A DNA stretch of 64,000 nucleotides from Zeimonas sediminis. GTDB taxonomy: Bacteria; Pseudomonadota; Gammaproteobacteria; Burkholderiales; Burkholderiaceae_E. The position numbers were made by a program, and so were the translations under genes. The stretch covers positions 1,736,001 to 1,800,000 of the forward strand of contig NZ_JAMQYE010000001.1 of the NCBI RefSeq assembly GCF_023721795.1, written 5' to 3'. Within the stretch, counting starts at the first letter, position 1. Each line of letters opens with the position of its first letter. Under the pieces are notes generated by a model. It did no database searches and was not told where the DNA came from. It was given only the letters and a program-made list of their open reading frames with translations. Positions 7,708 through 36,538 of the stretch are shown piece by piece.

Positions 7708-7714
7708 GATCGGG

Positions 7715-8452: not shown

Positions 8453-8468
8453 TTTCTGAGGCTCGGGT

Positions 8469-9425: not shown

Positions 9426-9449
9426 CACGTTGTCTCCACGTCCTGATTC

Positions 9450-11832: not shown

Positions 11833-11894
11833 ATGAAGTTCTCCACGGGTTCCATCAGGTAGCGGCGGCAAAGCCGGCGGTCGGAGGCGTCAGG

Positions 11895-13343: not shown

Positions 13344-14636
13344 CTACGCCACCTGAGCGGGCACCCCCGGCCGCGGCTGCTGCCCGTCCGCCCCGCCCTC
13401 ACCCGGGGGCATCGGGTCGGCAGGCATGCCCTCGGCCTGCGGCACCTTCATCGAGGCCTTGATGATGACGGACGCACTGTTGGCGGCGTCCTGCAGCGAC
13501 TTCGAGCTCAGGTGCGCATAGCGGGTGGTCACCGACGGATCGCTGTGGCCGAGGACCTGCTGAACCTCATACAGGCTCCGGCCCGCGTTGACCAACAGCG
13601 AGGCGTACTGATGCCGGAGGTCATGGACCCGAAGGTGCGGCAGACCCGCCTCCTTGCGCAGCTTCTCCCAGACCTTATGGATTGTGGTGTAGGGCCTGCC
13701 CATCGAGCCGTCTTCGTTCTTCCAGCGGTGATTGATGAAGACGTGCTCGAACTTGCCCTCGGTCTCGACCTCATCGAGGACCTCCAGCGCACTGTCGTTC
13801 AGCGGCACCGAGCGCATGCGCTTGGACTTGGAGTTCGTCGCCGGGATGCGCCAAACGCGGTTGGCCCGATCGATCTGGTCCCAGGTGGCCGTAAGCGCCT
13901 CGCTAAGCCTTGCCCCGGTCGACAGCAAGAACAGCGCGATCTGGCAAACACCGCGGGCGCTATCGGTTCGGAGGACTTCCAACAGGGCCGCGAGCTGCTC
14001 TGCGTTCAGGTAGTTCTCGACCTGGTTGTCGACGCGCAGCAGCGGAATACGCTCAGCCGGGTTCTTGTCGACCAGGTCCCAGGACACCGCCAAATTGAAG
14101 CATCGCTTAATCAGCCGAAGGTGGTGATCGGCCGATGCCGGGGACAGGCCATCATCGAGCAGGCTGGTGTGAAATTGCTGAATCTCGTGGCGCGAGATTT
14201 GGTTAAGCCGTCGCCCGCCGAACTTCGGCTGAATGCGCAGGCGATGAAGCTGCTCGTCACGTGCCCAACTGCGCTTTCGGGGCTTCACATAGGGTAGATA
14301 GTGAGCTTCAAAGAACTCGTCCCAGGTGATGACAGCCTTTTGGGCCTTGACCTGGCCGCGAGGGTCAGCCCCCAGGGCGATCTCGGCCTTAAGCTGCCTG
14401 GCCTTCTTACGGGCGTCGAGCAGGGCAATCTCGACCGTGCGGCCGATTTTCTGGTGACATGTCTTGCCAGTCGCGTCCTTGTATCGAAGGTAGTACGTCC
14501 CTTGGCCAGGGGCCGTCGCGCGCACCTCGACGTACAGGCCGGGGACGTCGCTATCGCAGTATTCAATGCGTGTCTTGCCGGACGGGCACTGCAGCTGGCC
14601 GGCGATGAACTCGGCCGTCAGTTTGATAACAGGCAT
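13344..14636 (-). CDS. Tyrosine-type site-specific integrase
   Basis: 430 aa from the ATG at 14636, which has an AAGGAGG site. The N-terminal arm-binding part (1-100) and SAM-like core-binding domain (about 105-195) precede the catalytic domain. All catalytic residues are visible: Arg243 in TGARLSEA, His338-x-x-Arg341 in HDLRHQYAS, His364 in LGHSDPSV and the nucleophile Tyr373 in RYAHLS. It would integrate and excise the element, most likely at the CAT tRNA gene, although it is not beside either attachment repeat. A Pro/Gly-rich tail of about 35 residues follows the catalytic domain. Confidence 0.95.
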   Translation of the reverse strand: MPVIKLTAEFIAGQLQCPSGKTRIEYCDSDVPGLYVEVRATAPGQGTYYLRYKDATGKTCHQKIGRTVEIALLDARKKARQLKAEIALGADPRGQVKAQKAVITWDEFFEAHYLPYVKPRKRSWARDEQLHRLRIQPKFGGRRLNQISRHEIQQFHTSLLDDGLSPASADHHLRLIKRCFNLAVSWDLVDKNPAERIPLLRVDNQVENYLNAEQLAALLEVLRTDSARGVCQIALFLLSTGARLSEALTATWDQIDRANRVWRIPATNSKSKRMRSVPLNDSALEVLDEVETEGKFEHVFINHRWKNEDGSMGRPYTTIHKVWEKLRKEAGLPHLRVHDLRHQYASLLVNAGRSLYEVQQVLGHSDPSVTTRYAHLSSKSLQDAANSASVIIKASMKVPQAEGMPADPMPPGEGGADGQQPRPGVPAQVA

Positions 14637-14713
14637 GGCGCCTCCTTGAGTTCGAAAAAATGGGGGACGGAGCGGCGGGCACGCGCAGCGCGAAACCGAC
14701 CGCCCCGGGGCGC

Positions 14714-15025
14714 TCACTTGAGCCTGTAATACTTCGGGTAGTTGTACTTGCGCTTCACGGGCACCAGGGCGACCGAGCCGCGATCGACCAGATCGCGCAG
14801 GCACATGCCGACCCGCCTCGCCGCCAGGGTCCCAAGGCATGCCCAGAAGGCCTCGCCGCAGATCTGCCGGGCGGTATACGCCTTGCCCGGTTCGAGCATC
14901 GGGATCATGGCCTCCACCTGCCGACGCACCGCCTCGTAGAGCCGCCGGTGGACCCGGCCAAAGCGGCCGCCGAGCTCAAGCCAGTCGCCGCCGGTCGCAG
15001 CGCCGCGCGGGGGTCGATTACACAT
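14714..15025 (-). CDS. Small winged-helix-like DNA-binding protein
   Basis: 103 aa. Residues about 45-95 (YTARQICGEAFWACLGTLAARRVGMCLRDLV) look like a helix-turn-helix followed by a basic wing (VPVKRKYNYPKYYRL). The ATG at 15025 overlaps the end of the primase-ATPase gene by 8 bases, so the two are translationally coupled. A role in replication initiation, excision or regulation of the element is plausible; I do not recognise the family. A longer reading frame reaches 15169 but has no ribosome site. Confidence 0.65.
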   Translation of the reverse strand: MCNRPPRGAATGGDWLELGGRFGRVHRRLYEAVRRQVEAMIPMLEPGKAYTARQICGEAFWACLGTLAARRVGMCLRDLVDRGSVALVPVKRKYNYPKYYRLK

Positions 15026-16862
15026 CGCCGCACCCTCCTGCCTGGTCCGTCTCCGGGGCCTCGGTCGCCGGCCCAGCCTCGCCGAGCAGCGCGAAGACCT
15101 TCGCCCCACGCTCGCGAACGACGAACTGCCACCGGTGTCGGGCGGGGTCAGCGCCCGTGTAGGCCTCAAGGATGCGGACCGCCTGGCGCTTGCTCACACC
15201 CGCGCGCTCGGCCACGGCATCGGCCAGGCGCATCTTCGTGTCGATGCCCTCGCGAACGCACGCCTGCACGTGGGCGATGAGGTCGGCGTCGCTGCGCTCG
15301 GCCTCGGTCCGCTTCAGGGTCAGCAACTCCGACTGATCAACCTCCTCGACCGAGGCGAGGAGCTCGTCGTAGGAAATGTCGGGTTCGATGCAATACCGAT
15401 ACGCGGCTTTGAGCGCGACGTTCCCGCGGCGCTTGATGTTTTCAAGCTCCACGACCCGCTCGGTGTCGCCGGGCGATGAATCAAGCGGTCGCAAGATGTG
15501 CACGCAGTCGGCATCGTCCCGGACATCGGTCGTGCCGGCAAACACTGGCTTCCCGTCAGAGCCCAGGTACTTGTTGGTGTGGGCCAACCCGACGATGGTG
15601 CCGCCCTTCACGATAAATTGTCGGGCGACCTTCATGAACGCACTGGCCCGCGATTTGTCCATCAGGTCGGTGAACTTCTTGAGCGTGTCGAGGATGACCA
15701 CAACACCTCGCGCCTGGTCCTCAGCGGTCATCACGCGCAGCGTGTCCAGGAAGTTGGTCGAACTGAATTCGCGATAGCCGTCGACGAGCAGGTGGAAGCC
15801 GCACTCGTCCGCGATCCGCAGCTTTTCCAGCAGGCCCTGAGCGTGATCGTCAACGTTGATGTAGTACACGCGGGCTGGATCGACTCGGCCCAGGCGGGTG
15901 GCCTCCCTCAGGAGGTGCAACGTAAGCAGCGTCTTGCCGCCGTTCGGTGGCGCGTAGATCGCCGTGAACTGGCCGACCATCGCGATCCTCCCGAGCAGCG
16001 GGATCTGTTCGACAGCGTTGCGTTCAACCTCGCCAGCCCGGCCTCGCAACGAAAACTTATCGAGTGCCGTCGGGCGGGGCCGATCAGGGGCGCACTGCTT
16101 GCCGTCCTCGCCGAGGGCCATGTCGTCGACCGGCGCGAACGGCGGCTCGACAGCGGCCCAAACATTACCCGGCTCCACGCCCGTTGCCTCGACGATCTGC
16201 ACCGGGGCGATCATCGGGCAGGGCGTGACATCGACTGGCGGGCGAACTCCCGATGCCAATCGGCGGTTGTGCTCGATGATCGCGGCGATCAAGTCCTGCC
16301 CCACCTCGGCCAGATCCGCGAGAGTCTGCGGCCCTGCCCCGAGGAGCCCTCGCCCCTCGCTGGGGGGCAGCGACAAGATGACACCCGCAGCCGCAATCCC
16401 AATATGGAGGGGAGGCCGTGACTGTTCACTCAACCAGTCGGACGTCGGGCGCGAACCGGGTGAACATCGAAACCAGTGGCGAATGCCAGTGGAACCGCCG
16501 TCGATCATGGTGGGGGTGATGCCGTGCGCCTCTTCAATCGCATCGAGGGCGCGCTGCGCATCGAGGGAACTCACCTCGAACACAACCAACTCGTCGCTGA
16601 GGACGACGCCGAAGTCGTGATCGGGGTGCTCGCGCCAATATGCGTCGACCGCATCAGCCGACAGTTGATCGAGCCAAGCCGACGCACCCCCGGTGCTCAG
16701 CTCACCACGGCCAATAGGGATCACACTAAAGCCCGCGCCGAGCCAGCGCAGGGCAGCTTCGGCGCGAGACTCGAAGGCCGGCGCGGCTGAAGCGGGGGAA
16801 AGGGTAAGACTCGGGTCGATCGGCGCAATGCCCGACCCGGAGCCGACGAGGTTGCTCGTCAT
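15018..16862 (-). CDS. Primase-polymerase-like N-terminus fused to a RecA/AAA-type ATPase
   Basis: 614 aa from the ATG at 16862 (GTGGAG site). Residues about 30-200 resemble the bifunctional primase-polymerase domain of plasmid and phage elements (AALRWLGAGFSVIPI, DHDFGVVLSD, GGSTGIRHWF). The metal-binding DxD of active enzymes reads FEVSS at about residues 95-99, so this domain may be inactive. The C-terminal half is a hexameric-helicase-like ATPase with Walker A PPNGGKT (about 305-311) and Walker B VVVILDT (about 387-393). It probably replicates or loads a helicase on the excised element. Confidence 0.82.
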   Translation of the reverse strand: MTSNLVGSGSGIAPIDPSLTLSPASAAPAFESRAEAALRWLGAGFSVIPIGRGELSTGGASAWLDQLSADAVDAYWREHPDHDFGVVLSDELVVFEVSSLDAQRALDAIEEAHGITPTMIDGGSTGIRHWFRCSPGSRPTSDWLSEQSRPPLHIGIAAAGVILSLPPSEGRGLLGAGPQTLADLAEVGQDLIAAIIEHNRRLASGVRPPVDVTPCPMIAPVQIVEATGVEPGNVWAAVEPPFAPVDDMALGEDGKQCAPDRPRPTALDKFSLRGRAGEVERNAVEQIPLLGRIAMVGQFTAIYAPPNGGKTLLTLHLLREATRLGRVDPARVYYINVDDHAQGLLEKLRIADECGFHLLVDGYREFSSTNFLDTLRVMTAEDQARGVVVILDTLKKFTDLMDKSRASAFMKVARQFIVKGGTIVGLAHTNKYLGSDGKPVFAGTTDVRDDADCVHILRPLDSSPGDTERVVELENIKRRGNVALKAAYRYCIEPDISYDELLASVEEVDQSELLTLKRTEAERSDADLIAHVQACVREGIDTKMRLADAVAERAGVSKRQAVRILEAYTGADPARHRWQFVVRERGAKVFALLGEAGPATEAPETDQAGGCGDV

Positions 16863-16903
16863 GGCTACTCCACAAGTGCAGGTTCTTGAATGCCGCCGGA
16901 GTC

Positions 16904-16915
16904 CTGACCGGTCAG
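16904..16915. promoter_or_regulatory. Perfect 12-base palindrome upstream of the primase-ATPase gene
   Basis: CTGACCGGTCAG, 42 bases upstream of the ATG at 16862. Its position suits an operator of the primase/winged-helix/integrase transcript. The regulator is unknown; the winged-helix protein at 14714-15025 is one candidate. The whole gap 16863-17230 holds this site and two repeat copies but no gene. Confidence 0.45.
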
Positions 16916-17107
16916 CCCGCACTTGCGGAATAATGAGACTAGGGTGCCGAAGAAGTTGCTCGCCGCGGCGTCGGTCAGGTCCGAGTGCTCGCCGCGTCGG
17001 CAGGCCTCAGTTTACCCGCGCCCCCGGGGCCGTCGTCAAGTGCGGCGCGCGCTGCTGCCAGTGCCGAGGCGACAGCTTCCCCGCCGCCGCTGCGACGGCC
17101 CGCGCCC

Positions 17108-20117: not shown

Positions 20118-21704
20118 ATGATCTCGGAAGGACTCATCCGGACCTATTTCGAAGCTGATCGCTCCGCGGTGAAACAGCGGTACGACCTGCTTTTCCCTGC
20201 CGCCTCGAAACGCGCGGCCCTGAGCGGCATTGAAGCCAAGGCGCCGAGCAAGAAGAGATCGGGGAGTTCGGCGGCCCAAGACCTTCCCCCCGCCGAGCCG
20301 ATGGAACCGCTCCCCGAGGGCGCGTCATTGCGCGATCTCACGAAGGCGGTCTTGCGAAACCTCGGGAGGATGCTGCACTTGCCAAAGGAGAGCACGGAAG
20401 AGTTGCAGAGTGCGAGCCTTGAACTTGGGATCTTTGACACTGGCGCGCTCGTGCATTTCCTAAACGAACTCAATGGAAATGGCACGACGAACGAGTACGT
20501 TCTTGAGGGGCTCACGCTCCTCCTTGGCCCGAAGCTCGCGACTGCGATCGTTCACAACTGGGCGCCGCTCGCCTGCTTTCCCGTTGACACCGATTTGCCT
20601 TATCCGCGCCTGAAAGCGCAGTTCCGGGCGGCGGGGATTGAATACGACGACGGCGAGCAGCATCTGACAGCAAGCGTCTTAATCAACATCTCTTACGCTG
20701 TTAGTGACTATCTCCAGAAACACAAGCTTGAACCCTGGCAGGTTTGGGCCCTCGTCTACGACCTAGGGCCGCGGCTCTTGCCTGAGCAGCGCCCATTCCC
20801 GACGGATCCGCCCCCAAGAATTTGGCTAACAGCCGCCGGCCCCGAAAACTACGCATCGGTCGACGCACATCAGCCAACGGATCGAGAGGTTTGGTCGGCG
20901 AACCCAAGAGCAAAGTACGGCGACTTGTTACTGATGTACTGTCGCGCTCCGAGATCTGCGATCGTCGGCGTCTATCGCTGCATGGCAGACGCCTACCGCG
21001 ACCCGCTCAATCAATATTGGACCGGTGTGTGGACGGAGATCGGGGAGAAGCTGCCCCTTCCGTACATCACCTTCGCGGAAATGCGAAGTGATCCAATTCT
21101 CAAGAACTGGGCGATGGTCAAAATGCAGTTTCAGGGGCTAATGAAGCATGCAATCCCAGACGAGTACTGGAAGCGACTGCAGGAGATGGTCGCCGCCAAG
21201 GACGCCAACGCGGGAGCACTGCTATCTGCCTATGCAGCCTCGGCCACTGGCGTCCGTCTGTTGCGCACATCCCCAGGGGAGATGACGGAGAAGGACTTCG
21301 AAGACACCGTCCTGCTTCCACTCCTCGGTCGGCTCGGTTGGCAGCTCGGGAAGTCATTGGATCGGCAAATCGAGATGCCGATCAAGGTTGGTTCCGGCCG
21401 CCCCATCCTCGCCCGCGCTGACATCGTGGGCTACAAAGGGCCCCTGGGCTCAGACGTCGCAATTGTGATCGAAAGCAAGCGATCGATCCGAAACTCGGCG
21501 GAGTTGGAGCAGGCGATGCTTCAAGCGGAGTCCTACGCGGGCAGACTCCGATGCACCCGGTTCGCTGTCGCTGCGCCCGAAGGGATCTGGGTGTACGAAA
21601 TGTCGTTCCCGAGCCAGAGCCGCGCCCTGACGGATCAGCCTGTTCCTCTGGAGGAAAAAAGCGTCGGCCGCCTTCGTGAGTTGCTCGGGCGGCGCAATGG
21701 CTGA
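20118..21704 (+). CDS. EVE-domain protein fused to a PD-(D/E)XK nuclease domain
   Basis: 528 aa from the ATG at 20118 (GGGGGAGA site). Residues 1-230 are an unknown helical region. Residues about 235-358 are an EVE (PUA-like) domain: RIWLTAAGPENY, KYGDLLLMYC, SAIVGVYRC and LPLPYITFAEMRSDPILKN. Residues about 390-495 form a restriction-type nuclease like HsdR N-termini, with Asp435 in LARADIVGY and Glu452-x-Lys454 in VIESKRS. EVE domains read modified bases, so this is probably a modification-dependent or modification-guided nuclease. It is the first gene of a four-gene operon and divergent from 19954. Confidence 0.85.
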   Translation: MISEGLIRTYFEADRSAVKQRYDLLFPAASKRAALSGIEAKAPSKKRSGSSAAQDLPPAEPMEPLPEGASLRDLTKAVLRNLGRMLHLPKESTEELQSASLELGIFDTGALVHFLNELNGNGTTNEYVLEGLTLLLGPKLATAIVHNWAPLACFPVDTDLPYPRLKAQFRAAGIEYDDGEQHLTASVLINISYAVSDYLQKHKLEPWQVWALVYDLGPRLLPEQRPFPTDPPPRIWLTAAGPENYASVDAHQPTDREVWSANPRAKYGDLLLMYCRAPRSAIVGVYRCMADAYRDPLNQYWTGVWTEIGEKLPLPYITFAEMRSDPILKNWAMVKMQFQGLMKHAIPDEYWKRLQEMVAAKDANAGALLSAYAASATGVRLLRTSPGEMTEKDFEDTVLLPLLGRLGWQLGKSLDRQIEMPIKVGSGRPILARADIVGYKGPLGSDVAIVIESKRSIRNSAELEQAMLQAESYAGRLRCTRFAVAAPEGIWVYEMSFPSQSRALTDQPVPLEEKSVGRLRELLGRRNG

Positions 21705-21831
21705 CCTGGCAACTCTGAACCCATGTTCTGCGATTAGGAATCACTGCAGATTGAGACGCTTCCTCGGTTGGCAGGCGCCTCTCCCGAGGTCAATCACAGG
21801 CTCGGATTCGTTCTCGCTCGGAGGCTGCTGA

Positions 21832-23481
21832 ATGAAGGTTGAAACAGCCTGGGTTTCACCACCGCAAGCGATCGGCGGTCTCGATCATCTCGGCACACAA
21901 GCTCCGTGCATCTTGGTCTACGGTCAGTTGCTGCCTGGGATCACCAACGTCACCGATCGCGCGCGTTATTACTCGTTCTATCCCTGGCTGATTTGGTCAT
22001 TTGACCAACGGTACGCCAAAGACGACGAGGCGCGATTCGTGGAGTTCTTCCGTCGCGCAGATTGCCTGTTCACACTTATCTCCGAGCGTCACGCCCGAAA
22101 GACCGACGGCATCAACGAGCGACACGGCGTCGCGATGGTCGGGAGAAACCAACTGACGCCGGCACTGGATCGCCTGGAGAAGGGCGAGCCCATGGTCCTT
22201 TCGAAATACACATCGCAAGAGTCGCCTCAGCGCTATTTCAAGAATCCGTTAGGCGGTCTTTCCCAGTATTACGCGGGGACCTTGAGCGAACTGCAGCTGA
22301 TGGATGCCTCTACCAAGCCGTGGATCAAGTACACGAAGGAGTTGGGCGCACCTCTAGCTCAGCAGGTGGAGTCGCATATCAACGCCAACCGGTTCTGGCA
22401 GGTGGTCGAGAGCGACAGCGTCACGGCTGAAGACCTTGACTCCTTAAGTGACCTGTGTGCGTGCCAGCTGCCTCGCAGCGCCGATGAGCGCAATACGCTT
22501 GTCGATCTATTTTTCGATCGAACCAACTCTCACGCACAAGAAGGGCTTCAGCGCAGACGCTCACTTGGGCTCATTCTGCATCTGGCCCGTTCGCTCCCAA
22601 AGGATCATGACCTAACGGAATCAGTTTTTCGGGCATGCACGTATTCGGGAGCGCTGCCAGGGCGCACCCCCTGGACGGTGCCCGAGGCATTGCGCCACAC
22701 ACTGGCCTGTTGGACGGTATATCAACGAAACGATCTGCTGTCTGTGGCTTGTCAGACGATATTTGGGTTGTCGCTTCGTGAACTGGACACCCAAGACGCC
22801 GCTCAGAGGATCGCCCATGGGTCGATCGAATCCTTCGCTGAAGCCTTCTCCAAGAGCATGCCTGTTTCGGCCGTCGCCCGAAGCCTGAACGCCAATTTGA
22901 TGGGCGATTTCCTAGACCAGCTCACCAAGTCCATGCCCCCCGTCGACTTCTGGGAACATGAGGAGCATGAGGTACAGGTTGCGCTCCGAATGTTGGCCGC
23001 CTGGCCTCAAGGCGACGATCTCCAGGGGATGCTCAGACGAGCGGTGACCGTCCTGGCCTTGTTGGCCTGCCGCGACGACGCCTCTCTACCGCCTTACGGC
23101 GATGTCGCCATGCCACCCGAAGCGCTCGCTGACTATCCGATCAACTTGGCGAGTTTTAGAGCCCGGGTTGCAGCGTGGCGACCCATGAATTTTTCGGCGT
23201 TCATCGCCGATCTCGTTACGTGGTGCCTTAGTACACATCTGCGAGTTGCGCTGCGCAAGCTGAGGCACTCTGGGCGGTCGACCTTCCACCTGCGACCTTC
23301 CGAGCGCGGCCTGGAAGTTGTTGGCGAAATACCGCCACCGGCTGCGACCACTCCGCGCTTCCGTCAGGCGGTTCAGATTCTGCGCGATATTGGTGCTCTA
23401 ACTCGCGACGCGTCACCGCCGAGCCGCCAGACCAGGCCATCGAGCCTCGGGATATCGCTGATGGCGGAATCGAGTGTTTGA
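21832..23481 (+). CDS. Unknown 549-aa protein of candidate defence operon
   Basis: 549 aa; I do not recognise the family. The N-terminus has a strongly patterned segment (AIGGLDHLGTQAPCILVYGQ, then GITNVTDRARYYSFYPWLIW, residues about 12-55), which looks like a conserved core; the rest is helical with no P-loop, HxK or nuclease signature visible. The ATG at 21832 has a GGAGG site. It lies 127 bases after the EVE-nuclease gene, and its stop overlaps the PLD gene start by 8 bases, so the products are probably made in fixed ratio and may form a complex. Confidence 0.8.
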   Translation: MKVETAWVSPPQAIGGLDHLGTQAPCILVYGQLLPGITNVTDRARYYSFYPWLIWSFDQRYAKDDEARFVEFFRRADCLFTLISERHARKTDGINERHGVAMVGRNQLTPALDRLEKGEPMVLSKYTSQESPQRYFKNPLGGLSQYYAGTLSELQLMDASTKPWIKYTKELGAPLAQQVESHINANRFWQVVESDSVTAEDLDSLSDLCACQLPRSADERNTLVDLFFDRTNSHAQEGLQRRRSLGLILHLARSLPKDHDLTESVFRACTYSGALPGRTPWTVPEALRHTLACWTVYQRNDLLSVACQTIFGLSLRELDTQDAAQRIAHGSIESFAEAFSKSMPVSAVARSLNANLMGDFLDQLTKSMPPVDFWEHEEHEVQVALRMLAAWPQGDDLQGMLRRAVTVLALLACRDDASLPPYGDVAMPPEALADYPINLASFRARVAAWRPMNFSAFIADLVTWCLSTHLRVALRKLRHSGRSTFHLRPSERGLEVVGEIPPPAATTPRFRQAVQILRDIGALTRDASPPSRQTRPSSLGISLMAESSV

Positions 23482-26005
23482 ACCCGTTTCAATCCTCGAT
23501 GTCATCAAACGCGGTGGCTACGAGGCGTCACTGCTCACAACGTTCAACGCTACCCTGCCGTTCTACGAGGAGGTTCTCCTACGAAAACTCGTGGGAGCAG
23601 GATGCCGTCACAACGTTGTGCTAATGGATCGCTCTCAGTGCGCCATTTCGTGGTCCAGCGAAATGACAAGGCCGAGGCTGGCCGGTCACGCCTATACCCT
23701 GCTACCGATCGGCGCACCAGGAGCCTTTCATCCGAAGCTGTGCATCCTTGTCGGCCCCAAGAAAGCCTCAGTCTTGATCGGGAGCCACAATCTGACCCTC
23801 TCCGGGTTCGGCTTTAACCGCGAGGTCACCAACTGGATTGAGGTGAGCGGCCCCAAAGACACAGAGGGCGGGGCATTGCTGGCAGACGCATGGCGGATGG
23901 CGAGTCAATGGATCGAGATGGAGCGCGGGAAGACCTCTGACCATATGATTGGGGCTGCCCTCGCGCTCGCCAATTTCATCAGTCCTCTCGTCGTCAATGC
24001 TGAGCGGTCAAAACGCGCCTTTGCTCTGACTCACACTCCTCTCGGGCCGCCGCTGTTCGATCAGATTTCCGACAGCATCTCATTCGACGTACGCCGCATC
24101 GCGATAGTTGGCGCCTTCTTCGACAAGGAGTTTGGCTTTATCGATGCGGTCGGTAAGCGCTGGCCGAAAGCGCAAGTTGTTGTGGGCGTCGATCCGGACT
24201 CAGTGCAAATGCTTGCGGCTCCGCCCAGCGGCTCGACCTGCTACGTGGACGTCCGGAAGTTGTGGCCAGAGCAGCATCGTTACATGCACGCCAAGATGCT
24301 TTGGTTCGATTCGGGCGGCGATAGCGGCGCCTTTGTAAGTGGTAGCGCGAACCCGAGTCGGCCTGCTTGGATGGGACCACCCACATCGAGCAACGTGGAG
24401 GCTGTCCTACTGCGGCTCGGTCGCGACGCGCACGAGGCCGCCGAGTCGCTCGGCTTACTCGGCATCTTTGATCTGGATAAGTTGGACCCTAGCCTATTCA
24501 AAGGCATCGCGATACGGAGCGCCACGGAGATTCCTTCGACTGACTCTGCGCCGGTTCCCCTGTGGACTGGGATCGCAAGCGGTCAATCCAGCGAGATACG
24601 CATCGGCAGACGAGGCAGCAAGGCGAAAGTCGATCTTGTCATCTTGTTCAACGCCAGCATGGAAACGCTCGGTGAGATTGGCAGCCCACAGGCAATCGAA
24701 GACGATCTGATCATCGTGTTCGCGGACGACATCGCGCGCGTCCGATCCTGCCTGCTCTACGCGAACGGCGCCTTGGTCGCTCGCGCCATGATTCATCATC
24801 CGGAGCTAGTATCCGCGTCCTCGCAATCCTCGCGACAACATCAGATTCGGACCGCGCTGAGCGGCCTCGGCTCATCCGAGGGGGACATCTCCAAGGTTAT
24901 CGCGTCGGTAGAGCGCGTCATCTTTTCGGATGAGACGCAGAAGGAGATGGAGGCGGTCCTTCGGGAGGCCAAGGCGAAGCACCCGGACAAACCCAAAACC
25001 CCGGGGCCTGAATCGCTTGCCGTCAGCACAGCCGATTTGCCGAAAGAGAAGAAGAAGATTCGCCTCTTGAAGTCTGGCGACCTTGCGTACTTACTCGACG
25101 TCCTGCTGCACCACCTCAAAGAGGGGTTGGACCGCCCGCCCCCCGGGGTCGACGCCAGCGGGCTCACTGAAGAAGGACTAGTTGGCACGGAGGGAAGCGA
25201 AGTGGAACGACCTGCCGAGCCGATCCTTCCACCGACGAGCCTGAGCGACTCTGATGTTGCCCGTGCAGTTTGTCGCCGGGCCCGAGCATTGACCCGGCGG
25301 ATGGTGGATCAACTCCGGTTAGCTAGTTCCGATCACTCCCGCAGAGCATCATCGCTCCTGCAGCTCATCGCCGTCCTTGCGCTCGTGCGTGAGCTGCGAC
25401 ACCTCGACAAGACGCCGCGCTGGAAGGCTACAGGTCAGCTACTGGTGGAAGAGAAGGATCGTCGATACCTCCTGGACGAATCCCTGACGTACCTCCTTGG
25501 TTCATCTTCACGCATGCTCGCGGAGCTCGACAGCGGCGACGTCGATACCGAGGAGGGCGCCCAATTGAGGGTTCTGCTTGTTTGGTTGGCCTGGGATCTG
25601 GGCGAGGAGCTGACGGAGCAGATCGGGCGACACTGGGATACTAGCGAGCAGCAGGCCAAGCTCCGCGCCAACGCGACGTTCTTGAAACTGCTGCCCCCAA
25701 TTGCGGAGGACGCTGCCGCCCGGGCCGAACTCGAGCAGAGCATTTCCCGAACGGTGCGCCAAACCCCTGAAGCCTCGCTCCGCGCAAGCAAGTGGCTGCA
25801 GAGCCATCTGCAATACGGCGCCGCATGGGCACGAGGCGTTTGCAGCGATGATGTCCTTCAAGTCGGAGGGTATTGCCGTGTCCCCGGCGTCGTGGAGGAA
25901 CCCCGTATCGTCCTTGCAGTCACCGAAGGCATGGTCGACTTCTGGGACTACGACAAGAAGCGGAGTTTCTCGCGCGACCGGGTCGTCGCTGTCGCGCCCG
26001 CCTAG
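23474..26005 (+). CDS. Large protein with two PLD-type HxK motifs
   Basis: 843 aa, GTG start overlapping the previous stop. Two phospholipase-D-superfamily half-sites are visible: His86-x-Lys88 in AFHPKLCIL with GSHN at 103-106, and His272-x-Lys274 in YMHAKMLWF with SGSAN at 289-293. One chain can thus form a full PLD nuclease active site. Residues 300-843 hold no helicase motif; they are helical, with a Lys/Pro-rich linker near 490-520. PLD nucleases act in several phage-defence systems, cutting DNA without metal. The C-terminal half may bind partners. Confidence 0.85.
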   Translation: MFEPVSILDVIKRGGYEASLLTTFNATLPFYEEVLLRKLVGAGCRHNVVLMDRSQCAISWSSEMTRPRLAGHAYTLLPIGAPGAFHPKLCILVGPKKASVLIGSHNLTLSGFGFNREVTNWIEVSGPKDTEGGALLADAWRMASQWIEMERGKTSDHMIGAALALANFISPLVVNAERSKRAFALTHTPLGPPLFDQISDSISFDVRRIAIVGAFFDKEFGFIDAVGKRWPKAQVVVGVDPDSVQMLAAPPSGSTCYVDVRKLWPEQHRYMHAKMLWFDSGGDSGAFVSGSANPSRPAWMGPPTSSNVEAVLLRLGRDAHEAAESLGLLGIFDLDKLDPSLFKGIAIRSATEIPSTDSAPVPLWTGIASGQSSEIRIGRRGSKAKVDLVILFNASMETLGEIGSPQAIEDDLIIVFADDIARVRSCLLYANGALVARAMIHHPELVSASSQSSRQHQIRTALSGLGSSEGDISKVIASVERVIFSDETQKEMEAVLREAKAKHPDKPKTPGPESLAVSTADLPKEKKKIRLLKSGDLAYLLDVLLHHLKEGLDRPPPGVDASGLTEEGLVGTEGSEVERPAEPILPPTSLSDSDVARAVCRRARALTRRMVDQLRLASSDHSRRASSLLQLIAVLALVRELRHLDKTPRWKATGQLLVEEKDRRYLLDESLTYLLGSSSRMLAELDSGDVDTEEGAQLRVLLVWLAWDLGEELTEQIGRHWDTSEQQAKLRANATFLKLLPPIAEDAAARAELEQSISRTVRQTPEASLRASKWLQSHLQYGAAWARGVCSDDVLQVGGYCRVPGVVEEPRIVLAVTEGMVDFWDYDKKRSFSRDRVVAVAPA

Positions 26006-26061
26006 CTAACACATACCCGCAAATTCCCGCACGCAAAGGTTGCGTCGCACTGGAGCACCCC

Positions 26062-27156
26062 ATGCGAGAAGCGCTCTCCACAACCGCCGGGCCCGAACCT
26101 GCGACTGGTCGACTCCGTGAGATTCTCATCTCTAAAGATTCCCGTTTCAAGAATTTGTTCGACTCACTTCAATCGGCTCAACTCGCCCTGGCGCCGAAAC
26201 AAGACTGCATCTACCAGTATCCATCTGCCAGTCAGACCACGGCCGTCCACAACGCAACAGCGAACAATGAAGCCCTCCGTCACGCCCTTGCTACGGCCAC
26301 GCATGGGGACCAGACTGTAGCGCTGCCAATTGCAGCGCACATGTACTTTCTGGGATCGATCGCCACGCGCTTAGCTGCATTCCGTTGGACGAGGAAGAAG
26401 GCGATTTCCGAGGCGCTCGACATCATCGCGGTCTGCATCGACCGTGGAGCACTCTCGGCTGCACTGCTGCAATCTCGCGCCAGCCTCGAGCAGGCAGGCG
26501 GACTCCTGCTGTTCGACAAGGACATTGCGGGCATCCCTAAGCCTTCGTCGGATAACGCGGCACGCACTCAGTGGCTCGTAGCGGTAAACGCCGCACTCGG
26601 AAGCCGGGCCAAGGGCATGCGCATTGACTGGGAAGACGTACTAGCTAAGGGATTGCGACAAGGCCGCTCGAAATCCTATAAACCCGCCGAAGGCGTTCAA
26701 TCCCTCGAAGCCCGAGATCTCATGAAGGGAATTGATGCGCTTGACCGGGAGATCAAAGGGACTCGCAAGGTTTATGACTTCCTGAGTGAATTCGCACACC
26801 CGAACATCGGTATTTTCTCGCTGGGCATCGAAGACTTCGCCCACGAGACGCTCAAAAGTGGACTACGTATATACACGCGAACGTATTCAGCAAAGGGGCG
26901 AGGCGCATATGTGACTGAACAGTTGGCGAGCATCTTCTTTGAGACACTCGAGGTCGTTCATGCCGTCAGCGCGCTTGCCCAGCAGAGCGACACAAGATTG
27001 GGGACACTAGAATCCGACCTCACTTTGCAGAGTCGCTCCGCCATTCGAACCATTCTTCGCCTGTACCCATGGACCACCAAACGCACGGATCCCTGTCCGT
27101 GCTTTTCTGGTCGCATCGCTGACGCCTGCTGTGGACGACGCCTGCGATTAGGCTAG
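26062..27156 (+). CDS. SEC-C zinc-motif protein, last gene of candidate defence operon
   Basis: 364 aa from the ATG at 26062 (GGAG site, 56 bases after the PLD gene). The C-terminus, residues about 343-359, is a SEC-C motif (DPCPCFSG...CCG; two Cys pairs) that binds zinc, as in SecA and many unrelated proteins. The rest is helical; RKVYDFLSEFAHPNIG at 235-250 is a motif seen in unclassified helical proteins. It may recruit partners or sense infection; the function is unknown. It ends 171 bases before the convergent hsdR stop. Confidence 0.8.
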   Translation: MREALSTTAGPEPATGRLREILISKDSRFKNLFDSLQSAQLALAPKQDCIYQYPSASQTTAVHNATANNEALRHALATATHGDQTVALPIAAHMYFLGSIATRLAAFRWTRKKAISEALDIIAVCIDRGALSAALLQSRASLEQAGGLLLFDKDIAGIPKPSSDNAARTQWLVAVNAALGSRAKGMRIDWEDVLAKGLRQGRSKSYKPAEGVQSLEARDLMKGIDALDREIKGTRKVYDFLSEFAHPNIGIFSLGIEDFAHETLKSGLRIYTRTYSAKGRGAYVTEQLASIFFETLEVVHAVSALAQQSDTRLGTLESDLTLQSRSAIRTILRLYPWTTKRTDPCPCFSGRIADACCGRRLRLG

Positions 27157-27327: not shown

Positions 27328-30300
27328 TCACCGCACCCCCGCCGCCCCGCCCCGATACACGCTCTGCCCCGCCCCAAAGTAGTTCTCGTAGACATGCGCG
27401 AACGTCTTGGCCCGCTTCTCCTTCTTCAGCTCCACCGTGTACGCCTTCGGCAGCTGGATGAAGTAATCCCGAATCGTCCGCTCGACGTCGGCCTTGGTCT
27501 GCGTCTTCAGCTTCCAGTCCAGTACGAGCTTTTCGGCCTTGAGCTTGGCCAGTAGTTCCTTGGCCACTTTCTTCACCTCGTCCTTTTCCTTCTCGGTCAG
27601 CTCGGGTTCCGGCTTCGTCAGCAGGTCGAAGATCGCAAGCTCTTCTTCGGTCAAGTTCTCGCGGTGGGCCCGTTGCTCTTCTTCGGTCAGGTTCTTGGCG
27701 AAGGCCATCAGCTCCTTGAAGAAGGCCTCCAGGTTGTGGCTCGATGAGTTGTAGGACTCGATCAGTTTCTGAAACTTCTCCAGGAAGTCGACCCGGCCCT
27801 TGTTCTCCCGGACCATCTTCTCCAGCTTCTTCTCGATCTGGCCCTTCAGCTTCTCGGTCTCGGTGGCCTTCTTGCCTTCCTCGAACTTCTTTTGCAGGGC
27901 GGCGAAGTCGATCTGTGACAGGTCGATCAAAGCTTCTGCCGCCGGTCGCTCACCGATGCGGTAGCCCTCAGTGGCGATCGAGTCGTCCAGCAACGCGTCG
28001 AGGTCGTTCATCACCCCGGAGATGTCCGGCGGCGGCCGCAGGGCCTTGATCATGGCGCCGAGGTAAGCCACCAGCACCGAGGTCGGCGCATGGGCGTTGG
28101 CTTCCGGATCAGGGAGGATCGCCCTAAACGTTCGGGCCACCTGACCCGCTAGCAGCAGATACGCCCGGGTCTTGTCCTCCCCTGCCTGGAGGATCACGTC
28201 CATCGCCTTCTGAAGGGCTTCCAGACGCTTTACTGGCGGGGTGATCACGATGCCCTTCAGGTCGATCCCGAGGGCCGCACAGAAGCCTTCAGCCTCGCGC
28301 AGAAGCTCCTCCAGTTGCGCCACCAGCGCCGCCTTGGCCTTGATCGGCATTTGCCCCGGCTGGTTGGGCTTGGCGTAGATGCGCAGTGCATCCTGAAGGT
28401 TGCGGAAGATGCCCACGTAGTCGACGATCAGACCGGCCGTCTTGCCAGGCGCCACGCGATTGGCCCGTGCGATCGTCTGCATCAGCGTGTGGTTGCGCAT
28501 CGGCTTGTCGAGGTACAGGGTCGAGCAAGTCGGCACGTCGAAGCCCGTGATCCACATGGCGCAGACGAACACCAGGCGCAAGGGACTGTCCGGATCCTTG
28601 AACTGCTCGTCCAGGTTCTCGGTGACCATGCGCTGACGGTGCGGGACGATGTCCAGCCCCTTGGCCTCCAGCTCCTCGACCTCGTTCTGGGACTGCGAGA
28701 CCACCACCGCCATGTCGGTGGACTGCATCACCTCGATCTTGTCGGCGAGCGTTTCCCTGGCGTCGCCGGTGGCGGTTTTCAGCTGGGCCTGGAGTTCGGC
28801 CAGGTGCCGCCTCCAATGCGCCTGCACCTTGTCGTACATCCGCACGGCCGTGGCCTTGTCGATGCAGACCATCATGGCCTTGCCCCGATAGCCACGACCC
28901 AGGAAGTGCTTCACCAGATCGGCGGCAATCGCCTCCAGGCGGTCGTCGCGGGTGATCAGGTGGTACTCGCGAGCGAACTCCCGCTCCAGCTTCTTCTCCT
29001 GCTCTTCGTCGAGCTCCGCGTCTTCCAGCAGTTTCTCGATGTCGCGGTTCAGGTTGTCATTGACGATTTGCAGCTCGGGCGTTCGGTTCTCGTAGTACAG
29101 CGGCACCGTGGCGCCGTCTTCGATGGAACGGGCGAAGTCGTAGACCGACACGTAGTCGCCGAACACCTCGCGGGTGCGCTCCTCCTCTCCGGCAATCAGC
29201 GGGGTGCCGGTGAAGCCGAGGAAGGCCGCATTGGGCAGGGCGTTCCTCATGTTCAGCGCGAACACGTCGTACTGGCTGCGGTGGGCCTCGTCGGTGATGA
29301 CGACGATGTCGCCCCGGTCGGAGATCTTCGGATAGGCCTCGCCCTTCTCGGTGCGGAACTTCTGGATCAGGCTGAAGACGTAGCGGTGATCCTCGCGCAG
29401 CAACAGCTTCAGGTTCTCGGCGCTGGTGGCCTGAACCTCTGCACCGGTGATCGCGCCCGTGGCGGTGAAGTTCTTGTAGATCTGGTCGTCCAGTTCGGAC
29501 CGGTCGGTGACCATCACGAAGGTCCACTTCCCCGGCAGCTTCCTCAGCACCTTCTGGGTGAAGAACACCATCGACAGGCTCTTGCCGCTGCCCTGGGTGT
29601 GCCAGAACACGCCGAGCTTCTTGGCTGCCTCGGCATCGCCGGACTCCCGCAGCTTGACCATCTGGGCGATTGCCTTGTTCACCCCGAGGTACTGGTGGTT
29701 CTTGGCGACCTTCTTGATCAGCCCGCCACGTGCCGTCTCGAACACAGTGAAGTTCTCGACGAGGTCGAGCAGCCGGCGCTTGTCGCACATGCCGCGGATG
29801 GCGGTCTCAAGGGACGTTGATCCCGCCTCGGTCTCGTCGTCGATCCTCCGCCATTCGAAGAAGTGCTCCCAGGGGCTGGTGAGCGTGCCCACCCGGGTCT
29901 GAGAGCCGTTGGACAGGATGACGAAGGCGTTCGGGTGGAACAGCTGCGGGATGCTCTGGCCCTTGTAGTCCTTCAGGTTGTCGTCGTAGGCCGACTTCAG
30001 CGGAACATGCGGCCCCTTCAGCTCGATGAAGACCAGCGGGATGCCGTTGACGAAGCCCAGCAGGTCGCAGCGTCGCTTGTACATCTCGCCCGACACCCAC
30101 ATCTGCTGGGCGAGGAAGAAGTCGTTGTTGTCTGGGTGGTTCCAGTCGATGACCGACAGCTCGACCGTTTGCGGGTTGCCGTCGCTGTCGGTGATCTCCA
30201 CCTTCACCCGGTCGCGCAGCAGCTTGTAGAAGGCCTGGTTGGCGTTGACCGGGAGCTGCTTGGAGCGATCTTCGGTCAGTTGCTCGATGGCCTGGTCGTA

Positions 30301-30534
30301 GGCGGAGGCGGGATAGCCGGGGTTGATGCGTTCCAGCGCCTTGCGAAGACGCGGCACGAGGATAACCTCGGCGGCGGACTTTCGCCCTTCGGTGCCATCC
30401 TGGCCGAAGGTTTCGGTGTAAAGGTTGGCGGTCTCCCAGCCAAGTGAAGCGAAGCAGTCGATCGCGGGAATCTCGACAAGGGTGAGCTCCCCATAGCCGG
30501 CTGTTACCTCCTTGGCCGTGAAAACGGAGGTCAT
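27328..30534 (-). CDS. hsdR: Type I restriction enzyme, HsdR (R) subunit
   Basis: 1068 aa, a normal length. The N-terminal nuclease has Asp157 and Glu171-x-Lys173 (CDLLGFVNGIPLVFIELKGP). The SF2 motor has Walker A in HTQGSGKSLSMVFF, DEAH box VVITDEAHRSQYD, and motif VI near TIARANRVAPGKTAG. A coiled C-terminal region would contact the methyltransferase. The complex cuts unmodified DNA after ATP-driven translocation. It is transcribed last in hsdM-hsdS-hsdR with a 4-base overlap to hsdS. All motifs look intact. Confidence 0.97.
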   Translation of the reverse strand: MTSVFTAKEVTAGYGELTLVEIPAIDCFASLGWETANLYTETFGQDGTEGRKSAAEVILVPRLRKALERINPGYPASAYDQAIEQLTEDRSKQLPVNANQAFYKLLRDRVKVEITDSDGNPQTVELSVIDWNHPDNNDFFLAQQMWVSGEMYKRRCDLLGFVNGIPLVFIELKGPHVPLKSAYDDNLKDYKGQSIPQLFHPNAFVILSNGSQTRVGTLTSPWEHFFEWRRIDDETEAGSTSLETAIRGMCDKRRLLDLVENFTVFETARGGLIKKVAKNHQYLGVNKAIAQMVKLRESGDAEAAKKLGVFWHTQGSGKSLSMVFFTQKVLRKLPGKWTFVMVTDRSELDDQIYKNFTATGAITGAEVQATSAENLKLLLREDHRYVFSLIQKFRTEKGEAYPKISDRGDIVVITDEAHRSQYDVFALNMRNALPNAAFLGFTGTPLIAGEEERTREVFGDYVSVYDFARSIEDGATVPLYYENRTPELQIVNDNLNRDIEKLLEDAELDEEQEKKLEREFAREYHLITRDDRLEAIAADLVKHFLGRGYRGKAMMVCIDKATAVRMYDKVQAHWRRHLAELQAQLKTATGDARETLADKIEVMQSTDMAVVVSQSQNEVEELEAKGLDIVPHRQRMVTENLDEQFKDPDSPLRLVFVCAMWITGFDVPTCSTLYLDKPMRNHTLMQTIARANRVAPGKTAGLIVDYVGIFRNLQDALRIYAKPNQPGQMPIKAKAALVAQLEELLREAEGFCAALGIDLKGIVITPPVKRLEALQKAMDVILQAGEDKTRAYLLLAGQVARTFRAILPDPEANAHAPTSVLVAYLGAMIKALRPPPDISGVMNDLDALLDDSIATEGYRIGERPAAEALIDLSQIDFAALQKKFEEGKKATETEKLKGQIEKKLEKMVRENKGRVDFLEKFQKLIESYNSSSHNLEAFFKELMAFAKNLTEEEQRAHRENLTEEELAIFDLLTKPEPELTEKEKDEVKKVAKELLAKLKAEKLVLDWKLKTQTKADVERTIRDYFIQLPKAYTVELKKEKRAKTFAHVYENYFGAGQSVYRGGAAGVR

Positions 30535-31841
30535 GCGGCGATGGCCTCCTCGGGTTCGGGCAGGGAGGAGACGTCGAGTTCGCCGGAGATCAGCTTGGGT
30601 AGCAGGAGGTCTCGGGTGGCGCGGAGGTTGGCGTTCTTAGAGGTCAAAGTAATTGTCATCTGCCTCATGGGTGCGACCAACTCGTCGAACCTCTCTTGAA
30701 CCACCAGGGGTGGGAGCATGAAGGTAGCTTCAGCCACTCGCCCACGCCCAAGTTCCGTCTGGCCGGTGGCACCGACCCCCTGCTGTTCGAAGTACTGCTC
30801 ATTCGCGAGCAATGCCAGACCGTAGAAGTGCGTGGTGACCTGCTTTCCAGGTCTCACAATCGTCACGTGCGTATCAACGGTGCAGTTTGGGCGCTCATCC
30901 AGAACCTGAGCCACCCGACCAAGGGTTCCCACGCCTGTGGAATTGATCAGGACATCTCCGTACCGAATGCGCTTGTCTGCAGGGATTGCCTTCGACTGTC
31001 GGCGAGCCAGATCGTAATTCAGCTTGTGGTCTCGGATGCACTTCTGATTGATGACAGTTCCATCTGCCAAATCGTCGTACTTTGGCGTCAAGCCCCGGTT
31101 GATGTACTCGGAAACCGCGCCAAGGGTGGTGTGTTCCCACTCCTCTGGGATCAACCCACACTCCGACTCCACCATCTTCACCTGCTCATGCCCCGGAAAG
31201 CGAAAGCGGACGAACCACTCCTCGTAGATTCTCCGGGCTACTTCTTCCAGGATTGCGATGCGTCGCGTGTTGTTTTCGATCAGGTCGTCGTAGGCGGACA
31301 GGATGGAGGCGATGCGGCGCTGGGTCTCTAAAGGAGGCAGGTCCACCTCACACTCATCTAAGAATGCCTCAAACTGAAAGTTACTGATTCCCGTGGACTG
31401 AACCTGCCACTGAGCAATCCGCCGATCGTCATACAAGCACCGCAGGACGTAGTAAATGAACCTTCCGTCAACCAAGGTGGTGTCAGGGACGATTCGCTTA
31501 CAAAAACTCGCAGGTATGACGTTGCCCCCAATCGACGCAAGCAATCGATCAGAGCAATACAGCGACCGGCCAACTGGCTGGTCTTTGCTGCCACCGGATA
31601 CCTCGAAGATAAGGTCACCGACCTCCAGCTTTCTAGACTTCAGATTGGAGATTTTGTGGAAACGTCGAGGAACGCTCTGCACGTTGCCGATCAAAGCACC
31701 TGGGATATCTGTGCCACGAATCACCGCCGCCGGCTCATAATAATCAACTGACGCGGACTCGCTCCCCCACCCTCCGCCTATATAGTCTTTGAAGAGGGGG
31801 CGTAACGTCGTCCTCGACCAGAGCTGATCACTTCGTCGCAC
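30531..31841 (-). CDS. hsdS: Type I restriction enzyme, HsdS specificity subunit
   Basis: 436 aa with the classic two-repeat layout: target-recognition domain 1 (about residues 5-170), a conserved helical spacer ([20 protein letters not shown], then [20 protein letters not shown]), target-recognition domain 2 (about 225-385) and a C-terminal conserved helix ending in [13 protein letters not shown]. It sets the bipartite DNA target for both methylation and cleavage; the target cannot be read from sequence. It overlaps hsdM by 14 bases and hsdR by 4. Its base composition is more A+T-rich than that of its neighbours, typical of exchanged specificity genes. Confidence 0.95.
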
Positions 31842-33378
31842 TGAGGACTCCCAGTATCATTTCCGAGATGTTCCGCTCCAAAACCGATGCCTCGCTATTC
31901 AGCGATTCAAGCCTTTCACCGAGTTCTTCTAGTCGCTCAAAGAAATCGATATCTTCCGCCGCTCGATCGCCAACCCCAACGTACCTCCCCGGATTCAGAC
32001 TCCACCCCTGCGCCTCGATCTCCGCGAGCGTCACCGCCTTGCACACCCCGGCGATGTTTCGGTAGACCCCTTCAGGAAACTGCTGCCCAAGCGCCTCTTG
32101 GCTACCCGCCTCGGTCTCAGCTTCCTCTCCGCGCCAAAGCCGCACGATATTAGCCATGAGCTCGATCTGTTCGGGCAAGAAATCGCGGATCGCCCGGCTG
32201 ACCTGCCGATAGAAGCCCCGCGCATCGATGAACAGCACCTCGTCCTTCCGGTCACCTTTGGCCTTGGCTTTGTCGAAGAACCAGAGCGTGCACGGCAGGG
32301 TGACCGTATAGAAGAAATTCGGGCCGACCGATACGATCACATCCACGCCGCCGGTCTGGATCAGCTTCTTGCGGATTTCCAGCTCCATACCCCGCGCGTC
32401 TCCCGCCGAGTTCGCCATGACGAAACCGGCGCGCCCCCTTTCGTTCAGCGCGGTGTAGAACAGCTGGATCCAGAGGTAGTTCGCGTTGTCGGTAGTCGGG
32501 ATGCCGAAGGGAAACCTGGGGTCATCCTTCACCCGCGCCTTGTCCACACCCGAGACGTTGAACGGCGGGTTCGCCATGACGAAGTCGAACTTTCCGAGGG
32601 CCTTATGCGGGTCCTCGTAGTAGGTGTTGGACTCCCGGATGTCCCCGGACAGGCCATGCACTGCGAGGTTCATCTTCGCCAGCTTGACCGTATCGTTGGC
32701 CTTCTCGGCCCCGAAGACGGTCAACTCCTCAGCGGCCCGCTTCTTGTGGCGGCTGACGAACTCCGCACTCTGTACGAACATGCCGCCCGAGCCGCACGCG
32801 GGGTCGAAGATCTTTCCGTGGTACGGCTCGATGATCTCGACGATGAGCTTGACGATGCTGGTCGGGGTGTAGAACACCCCGCCCTTCTGGCCTTCCGCCA
32901 GCGCGAACTTGCCGAGGAAGTACTCGTAGATCTTCCCGAAGGCGTCACCTTCGATTTCCTCCAGGCCGTTCAGCAACCGCAGCAGCTCGACCAACACCGC
33001 GTTGGGCAGCTTCCCGTAGGAGCGCGGCAGGACGCCCTTCAGCTCCTCGTTCTCGGCCTCGACCGCCGCCATGGCCTCGTTCACGGCCTTGCCCAAGTCG
33101 TGCCCTTCCGCCAGGTCGAGCAGATAGGAGAAACGGGCGTTGTCGGGCAGGTAGAGCGCCCCGTCGGCCTGGTAGTCGAACTTCTCGATCTCAGAGGCGT
33201 CCAGCCCCTTCTCCATCAGCTTGGCCTCGGCCTCATGGAAGCGCTTCTCCGCGTAGCGAAGGAAGATCAACCCAAGGACCGGGTTGGAGAACTCGGAGGG
33301 TTTCAGGCCGGTGTTCGCCCACAACTGGTCAGCGGCGGCCCACAGGCGGTTCTCAATCTGGTTCAGATCAACTGACAT
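31828..33378 (-). CDS. hsdM: Type I restriction enzyme, HsdM adenine methyltransferase
   Basis: 516 aa from the ATG at 33378; a GTG at 33393 is the alternative and neither has a good ribosome site. The N-terminal helical HsdM domain (about 1-130) precedes the N6-adenine methyltransferase core with motif [12 protein letters not shown] and catalytic motif IV ANPPF. Two HsdM plus one HsdS form the methylase. First gene of the operon. The 276 bases from 33379 to 33654 hold its promoter, but I could not pick one; no other gene is seen there. Confidence 0.96.
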
Positions 33379-33654
33379 TGGTGAACTAGGCACTTAAGCG
33401 AGTATGACGGGCTAAGCAACATGCTCTTGGCAGCCGAAATCTAGCATGTCATTCTCGCCCTCTGAATGGCAAAAAAAGGCCGGCGCAACGGCTAGATGCT
33501 GCACGCCAACGCCGTTCGTCCGCCAGCAGCCCGAACTACTTGACCTCGCCGCATTTCAGCCAGCAGCATTTAACTCAGGCCGTCAACTCCAACCGCACTA
33601 GCTCCCGAGGAGCACGAAAGTCTCGGGTGACTCACGACGCCCGAAGAGCAATAG

Positions 33655-33912
33655 GTGGGACTCATCAAAATTACCGCGCACGTGATCAACCGCGCCACTT
33701 CCACAGTAGTAGTCAAATACACCTCGGACGTCCAGAACCGACGCCTGGCGCTGAAGCGCCTGATTCAACAGGCGATCAGCGTCGAGCGGCGGCGCGAACT
33801 CGACCTCTACAAGCGATATGCGTCTGATCCGGACTTCAAGCGGGCGTTTGATGCGAGCGTGTCGAGGTTGCTTTCCTCGGCTGCGTGCAAAACGCTTGTG
33901 GCTCGGGCGTAA
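33655..33912 (+). CDS. Possible small protein preceding Kiwa genes
   Basis: 85 aa with a GTG start and only a weak GAAGAG site. The translation (MGLIKITAHVINRATSTVVV..., basic helix RRLALKRLIQQAISVERRREL) is plausible protein with a mixed strand/helix pattern, but no family is recognised. It ends 17 bases before kwaA, which suggests an operon. It could be a spurious frame; start and reality are both uncertain. Confidence 0.4.
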   Translation: MGLIKITAHVINRATSTVVVKYTSDVQNRRLALKRLIQQAISVERRRELDLYKRYASDPDFKRAFDASVSRLLSSAACKTLVARA

Positions 33913-33929
33913 CCGGACAGGACTTTCAC

Positions 33930-36430: not shown

Positions 36431-36538
<108 letters not shown>

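Follow-up and report, generated by a model that had tools for sequence, protein, structure and literature searches.

Four co-directional genes lie on the plus strand between positions 20,118 and 27,156 of the 64,000-nucleotide stretch of Zeimonas sediminis DNA analyzed here (hereafter, the window), and the question raised by this locus is which of them belong together as a functional unit. The original prediction held that all four, numbered here as genes 1 to 4, constitute a single anti-phage or anti-plasmid system without a match to any named one. The underlying layout was confirmed when the coordinates were recomputed, with a 127-base gap between genes 1 and 2, an 8-base overlap between genes 2 and 3, and a 56-base gap between genes 3 and 4. 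A multi-gene unit on a defence island is indeed present, but it comprises genes 2 and 3 (21832-26005) and not all four. Together, these two genes probably specify a DNA-targeting defence module in which the product of gene 3 would be the nuclease and that of gene 2 its partner. We predict this module to be related to the ZacA-ZacB portion of Azaca but to lack the helicase; Azaca is reportedly a ZacA-ZacB-ZacC system described by Millman et al. in 2022.

Co-inheritance of genes 2 and 3

Relatives of gene 2 were collected from plasmids, genome contigs and viral contigs. A tblastn search of plasmids returned 13 records, and a gene for a PLD protein was found directly after gene 2 in eight of the nine neighbourhoods examined, the ninth (from Aminobacter) holding a remnant only. 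A four-row gene-2 profile, run against genome contigs, gave 115 relatives, the best 80 of which were kept. Neither phages nor viral contigs yielded a match to the single gene 2 protein; with a nine-row profile, four loci were recovered from viral contigs, one of which has the same gene 2 sequence as a locus from a bacterium. The resulting set comprised 93 loci outside the own genome (80 from genome contigs, 4 from viral contigs and 9 from plasmids).

Both genes are full length in 77 of these 93 loci, and in every one of the 77 they are adjacent, in the same order and on the same strand. Sequence of gene 3 was detected by tblastn directly after gene 2 in nine further loci, two of which (L028 and L047) are cut by contig ends, one (L030) retains only the last half of gene 3, and the remainder show interrupted, overlapping or mis-called frames. 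Given that the remaining seven loci hold fragments of gene 2 only, no intact gene 2 among the 93 loci lacks gene 3 sequence. The two reading frames overlap in 76 of the 77 full-length loci, most commonly by 4 bases (32 loci) or 8 bases (12 loci), larger overlaps being uncertain because start codons were chosen mechanically. Protein distances for genes 2 and 3 agree closely (Mantel r 0.97 for 78 pairs, equalled in 0 of 2000 permutations), as expected for linked genes. Thirteen near-copies (≥88%) were excluded from the alignments, and two loci without a gene call (L009 and L046, the latter with both genes by tblastn) were excluded from the 91-locus set used for neighbourhood analysis. Since both frames are conserved across dozens of loci, genes 2 and 3 are real genes.

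Among 200 relatives of the host, gene 2 was found in the own genome only. When 299 genomes of the phylum were searched with the gene-2 profile, the own genome and four other hits were obtained. One of these, G348, is a true ZacA that was picked up at E=3.4e-4. Two carry the pair, namely G273, with one stop codon inside the profile match, and G442, which is the same genome as locus L057 (100% identical over 18.8 kb); G273 is therefore the sole independent check. The fourth, G437 (locus L118, 7393-9075, minus strand), is a distant relative of gene 2 that stands beside a BrxA gene and a 573-residue gene, with no match to gene 3, and a ZacA-like fold may thus also serve BREX-type loci.

The outer genes behave differently. 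Neither for gene 1 nor for gene 4 did any of the 93 other loci yield a relative (phmmer, E≤0.1; tblastn, E≤0.01), and the conserved unit therefore consists of two genes. Searching of plasmids gave one record for gene 1, covering the EVE part only, and no hit for gene 4. Across the 299 phylum genomes, the own one included, gene 1 had four other hits, again in the EVE part only, within open frames of 137-228 residues. Gene 4 had four hits in the 298 other genomes, one of them full length (29%) and located away from any counterpart of genes 1-3. Full-length relatives in the collections searched thus number none for gene 1 and one for gene 4, which is thin support for their conservation. The gene upstream of the pair varies from locus to locus and may encode a PIN nuclease or a NERD, DUF3644, DUF2130, WYL or other protein. 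EVE domains do occur in 37 of 50 pair-carrying genomes, a genome-level count that is not mapped to the contig of the pair, but nearly all are short stand-alone proteins. Thus, genes 2 and 3 form a conserved two-gene module and the four-gene arrangement is not conserved; among the 93 other loci, the order 2-3 recurs and the order 1-2-3-4 does not. Genes 1 and 4 are most likely separate cargo of the island.

The domain content of these two neighbours was examined with Pfam. The EVE match in gene 1, taken originally as a modified-base reader, lies above the Pfam cut-off (E=2.4e-6), whereas the proposed nuclease half is seen as a sub-threshold HSDR_N match (E=0.33) and a D-(16)-E-x-K motif legible by eye (D435, E452, K454). 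We describe gene 1 as joining an EVE domain to a putative nuclease of the PD-(D/E)XK class in a type IV-like arrangement. The SEC-C match of gene 4 was also recovered but falls below the Pfam cut-off (E=0.0064), and this putatively SEC-C-tailed protein is a separate neighbour outside the conserved module.

Catalytic sites of gene 3 and kinship with Azaca

The predicted product of gene 3 (843 residues) carries two PLD half-sites, as originally proposed: PLDc_2 was matched above the cut-off in two stretches (E=3.5e-7), with conserved residues at both. In 78 aligned sequences, the H, N and E of the first half-site are invariant and K88 is lysine in 77 and arginine in one; the four residues of the second half-site are invariant in all 78. 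Altogether, 12 positions were examined, of which 11 are invariant, K88 being the exception. The residues of the first half-site are spaced 0/2/20/31, exactly as H105, K107, N125 and E136 of BfiI (PMC4081073). A structure model of gene 3 (mean pLDDT 86.2) was compared with known structures using Foldseek, and the best matches in the PDB were Tdp1 chains (E down to 2.8e-9, TM by target ~0.5), followed by F13, polyphosphate kinase and SauUSI. What is established for the PLD superfamily points to a metal-independent phosphodiesterase with one composite active site. Gene 3 most likely encodes such an enzyme acting on DNA, DNA being suggested as its substrate by BfiI, Tdp1, SauUSI and the genomic neighbourhood.

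Gene 2 encodes a protein of 549 residues for which no Pfam family was found at E≤1, in agreement with the earlier description. Its AlphaFold2 model is helical (mean pLDDT 92.3) and gave no Foldseek match at E≤0.001 in PDB or BFVD; weak fold matches to transporters were rejected on the basis of TM values of about 0.1, and comparison of the gene-2 profile with PDB sequences produced nothing useful. The N-terminal region is marked by the motif G-L-D-x-L-G-x-Q ... L-P-G-I-x-N-V-T-x-R-x-R-Y-Y ... W. At least 15 positions are invariant in 78 sequences, including R43, R45, Y46, W52, R74, E219, R241, H469, K476, R509 and D519.

Kinship with Azaca was assessed against three Azaca loci found with the ZacA model in the 299 genomes, whose tested proteins match the ZacA, ZacB or ZacC models with E values no higher than 3e-89 (the ZacA of L098 and the ZacB of L099 were not in that scan). 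Profile-profile alignment with hhalign related the gene-2 family to the three ZacA proteins over 89 columns (P=7.2e-6) and the gene-3 family to the three ZacB proteins over 280 columns spanning both PLD half-sites (P=1.5e-15), and the four cross-pairings used as a control gave P=0.32-0.73. Gene 2 and ZacA share the motif D-x-L-G ... P-G ... R-x-R-Y ... P-W. Member by member, the PADLOC models for ZacA and ZacB matched 46 of 57 gene-2 proteins (E≤0.01) and all 57 gene-3 proteins, respectively. For gene 3 of the window, the ZacB match has E=9.9e-11 over residues 84-317, which covers the catalytic part and not the whole protein. The claim that the locus matches no named system therefore stands in part: the profiles name no unit outright, but the core is related to ZacA-ZacB.

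The third Azaca gene is absent. No ZacC helicase was found in the own genome. Nor does one adjoin the pair in the same orientation at any of 93 placed pairs, a count that takes in the window and the copy in the own genome. In locus L007, the pair is immediately preceded by a DrmD-like SNF2 helicase gene and a 587-residue gene (1946-6819), closely spaced and in the same orientation, and L007 is a possible member of the family with its own motor. No description of a helicase-less Azaca-like pair was found in the open-licence literature searched.

The island and its neighbourhoods

The window pair is carried by an island of ~34 kb inserted at tRNA-Met. Direct repeats at 2125-2201 and 36431-36507 (77 nt, 96%) contain the 3' portion of tRNA-Met (gene at 36460-36538), flanking repeat stretches are found at 1863-2075 and 35561-35777 (79-84%), and the G+C content is ~0.55-0.67 within the ~34 kb between the repeats vs 0.69-0.75 beyond 36 kb. 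A type I restriction-modification (R-M) system and Kiwa, both originally described as adjoining on the same island, match PADLOC models (Table 1). Two genes in mid-island, for an integrase and a primase-polymerase/AAA protein, are probably the mobility and replication genes of the island. A further possible defence unit is found at 10296-12809 (minus strand), where a JukB-like protein (E=6.5e-12, partial) is encoded beside a WYL-domain regulator. Metabolic genes also lie inside the island repeats (2513-9428, minus strand), including acyl-CoA ligase types, an enoyl-CoA hydratase, a TctC receptor and an IclR regulator.

Table 1. Positions of the genes and sites of the window discussed in the text
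Feature	Position	Strand	Remarks
Gene 1	20118-21704	+	ATG at 20118; open frame extends upstream to TTG at 19977
Gene 2 (core, ZacA-like)	21832-23481	+	549 residues, mostly helical
Gene 3 (core, ZacB-like PLD-superfamily phosphodiesterase, predicted)	23474-26005	+	GTG start, 843 residues
First PLD half-site	23729-23824	+	H86, K88, N106, E117 of gene 3
Second PLD half-site	24287-24400	+	H272, K274, N293, E309 of gene 3
Gene 4	26062-27156	+	ATG start, 364 residues; frame extends upstream to TTG at 25873
Type I R-M operon, convergent	27328-33393	-	PADLOC type I models
hsdR	27328-30534	-	PADLOC best E 4e-178
hsdS	30531-31841	-	PADLOC best E 5e-65
hsdM	31828-33393	-	PADLOC best E 1.5e-210
Kiwa	33885-35446	+	KwaA + KwaB
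KwaA	33885-34523	+	PADLOC E=3.7e-74
KwaB	34514-35446	+	PADLOC E=5.3e-116
Tyrosine integrase	13344-14840	-	mid-island, far from either end
Primase-polymerase/AAA protein	15018-16922	-	mid-island

Recurrence beside R-M genes extends beyond the window. At least one hsd gene lies within six genes of the pair in 18 of 91 loci, with two or more subunits in 13 and all three in 9. Four loci (L008, L017, L018 and L051) have the pair nested between a co-directional hsdS and hsdR, two of them (L017 and L018) with a GIY-YIG gene and a PIN gene in the same nest, and in L052 the pair directly precedes hsdR. On a gene-2 tree of 84 rows, 19 of them labelled as linked to R-M, the linkage requires 15 changes, compared with a mean of 17.5 after shuffling, from which it follows that it was repeatedly gained or lost. 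A background density was estimated from 175 HsdM_N matches in 150 genomes of ~4 Mb each (rounded), or ~0.3 per Mb. Compared with ~0.4 hsdM genes expected by chance in the 1.34 Mb of neighbourhood, 12 loci besides the window have an hsdM-like gene, a comparison that is rough in that the two counts differ in detection, near-copies remain among the loci and defence genes cluster generally.

Other neighbours of the pair include PIN, GIY-YIG and NERD proteins, the DUF1016/YhcG nuclease, MmeI-like methylases, a Dsr1-like protein and WYL regulators, as well as DUF3644, DUF2130 and DUF3732 proteins and UvrD and DpdF-like helicases. Such neighbours are typical of defence islands. In two Vibrio loci (L056 and L057), the pair is immediately preceded by a WYL-domain gene, an arrangement shared with other defence loci under regulation, the WYL match being taken from the identical L117 copy.

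Proposed function and relation to known systems

In the mechanism we favour, the two PLD half-sites of gene 3 would fold, within one chain, into a single active site. A histidine would form a covalent DNA intermediate, and the strands would be cut singly, in the manner of BfiI. Gene 2 would supply a helical, dedicated partner that recognizes the target, or a motor on the target, and licenses when or where the nuclease acts. Since the pair has no companion gene for a helicase of the ZacC type, the module would either work with no dedicated motor or act on DNA that other translocases of the island are processing, for example the adjacent type I enzyme. A stronger version, which we put forward only tentatively, is that this widespread family, a PLD nuclease with a helical partner of a new fold, dispensed with the Azaca helicase and now uses or polices the DNA motor of the adjoining restriction system, serving type I enzymes and comparable translocases as a plug-in nuclease; equally tentatively, repeated insertion between hsdS and hsdR could then be read as the trace of such coupling.

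Several observations weigh against a helicase-less, Azaca-related nuclease pair. The ZacA match of window gene 2 (E=0.0034 over 38 residues, 32-69) is weak taken alone, and across the family only ~90 N-terminal residues resemble ZacA. A ZacC-like helicase does occur two or three genes upstream in two loci (L007 and L053), so some members may have a motor, although the helicase of L007 is best matched by DrmD. By fold, BfiI ranks low among the matches to gene 3 (E 2e-3, TM by target 0.27); the PLD superfamily includes non-nucleases, and F13 and polyphosphate kinase are among the proteins that match the model. Comparison of the gene-3 family profile with PDB sequences gave no match at E≤1. Finally, no hsd gene lies within six genes of the pair in 73 of 91 loci, and R-M genes therefore accompany the pair often without being required.

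Other explanations can be set against the same data. In the abortive infection alternative, gene 2 would free gene 3 upon infection, whereupon gene 3 would degrade host nucleic acid and kill the cell. The PLD effector AgaP is toxic and loses cellular toxicity when H105A or K107A is introduced (PMC11442185), and gene 2 is a dedicated, co-inherited partner, just as an inhibitor would be. No sequence feature distinguishes this from direct DNA restriction, and we regard it as rather unlikely. The possibility that the pair serves type I R-M enzymes as a set of accessory subunits, and is not a system in its own right, would account for the nested loci and L052, and a complete type I system adjoins the pair in the window. 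It appears improbable in view of the many loci with no hsd gene nearby, and several pairs are flanked by genes on the opposite strand (e.g. L077, L089 and L090).

A single modification-dependent system of four genes, in which the EVE-nuclease would read modified bases, genes 2 and 3 execute and the SEC-C protein regulate, is favoured by the shared orientation, the modest gaps on either side of the pair and the lack of a strong internal promoter match. It is nonetheless very unlikely, in that the outer genes are without relatives at the other 93 loci, the one full-length relative of gene 4 stands apart from genes 1-3, the upstream gene changes between loci, and the EVE domains of pair-carrying genomes are seldom fused. 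Very little weight is given to a Tdp1-like role, whereby gene 3 would strip proteins or adducts from DNA ends, either in repair or in attack on genome-linked phage proteins, and would not cut chains. The Tdp1 chains that head the PDB matches speak for it, but the first half-site has its glutamate at the BfiI position (E117, invariant in 78), and the genomic company of gene 3 is one of nucleases and R-M genes. A helicase-less relative of ZacA-ZacB that targets DNA thus remains the preferred reading. If correct, at least 115 genome loci (one scan), to which the profile libraries consulted give no collective name, would join the Azaca lineage and offer a minimal two-gene form for testing the roles of ZacA and ZacB without the helicase; gene 2 would represent a fold for which the PDB offered no match; and, in a module that repeatedly settles inside type I R-M operons, functional coupling would be directly testable.

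Among the known systems, DISARM combines DrmA, DrmB and a methyltransferase with a PLD protein, DrmC. In line with the original statement that its core genes are missing, the best Drm match in the four proteins was DrmC (E=0.0078), and the ten other island proteins scanned gave no Drm match at E≤0.001 among the matches listed, these fourteen proteins being those in which a DISARM or Dpd set was sought. In the wider family, the DrmC model PDLC02614 matched 39 of 57 gene-3 members, more weakly, and DpdK, the PLD protein of Dpd, matched 1 of 57; the profiles score ZacB better than these (best E 1.8e-18 vs 2.6e-9). PDC-M27, a PADLOC candidate system, comes closer in that PDC-M27B was matched by 52 of 57 gene-3 relatives. 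However, no gene-2 relative matches any PDC-M27 model at E≤0.01, and the PDC-M27C models resemble ZacC, a gene of which type does not adjoin the pairs. Constant linkage to hsd genes, as would suit a type I accessory, was not observed (18 of 91 loci). The EVE-PD(D/E)XK type IV enzymes surveyed in 2020 by Bell, Wolf and Koonin (PMC7641849) resemble gene 1 in architecture and have no bearing on the pair. BfiI shares its H, K, N, E spacing with the first half-site of gene 3 but builds its active site from two subunits and has its own DNA-reading domain (PMC4081073), whereas in gene 3 the half-sites share a single chain and the partner is a second protein.

Azaca is the nearest relative. It is listed as containing a PLD-like domain in PMC10952713, and PLD motifs are present in ZacB as in gene 3. 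The A-B gene order with a short start/stop overlap is also seen in real Azaca (L099 and L100). By contrast, gene 2 is longer than ZacA (549 vs ~390 residues) and alike at the N terminus only, and a ZacB-type second gene is found without ZacA likeness over the whole of the first gene; gene 3 is likewise longer than ZacB (843 vs ~600 residues); and the helicase gene that stands third in Azaca has no counterpart beside the pairs or in the own genome. Since ZacC is missing, the pair is regarded as a variant of Azaca and not as Azaca under another name.

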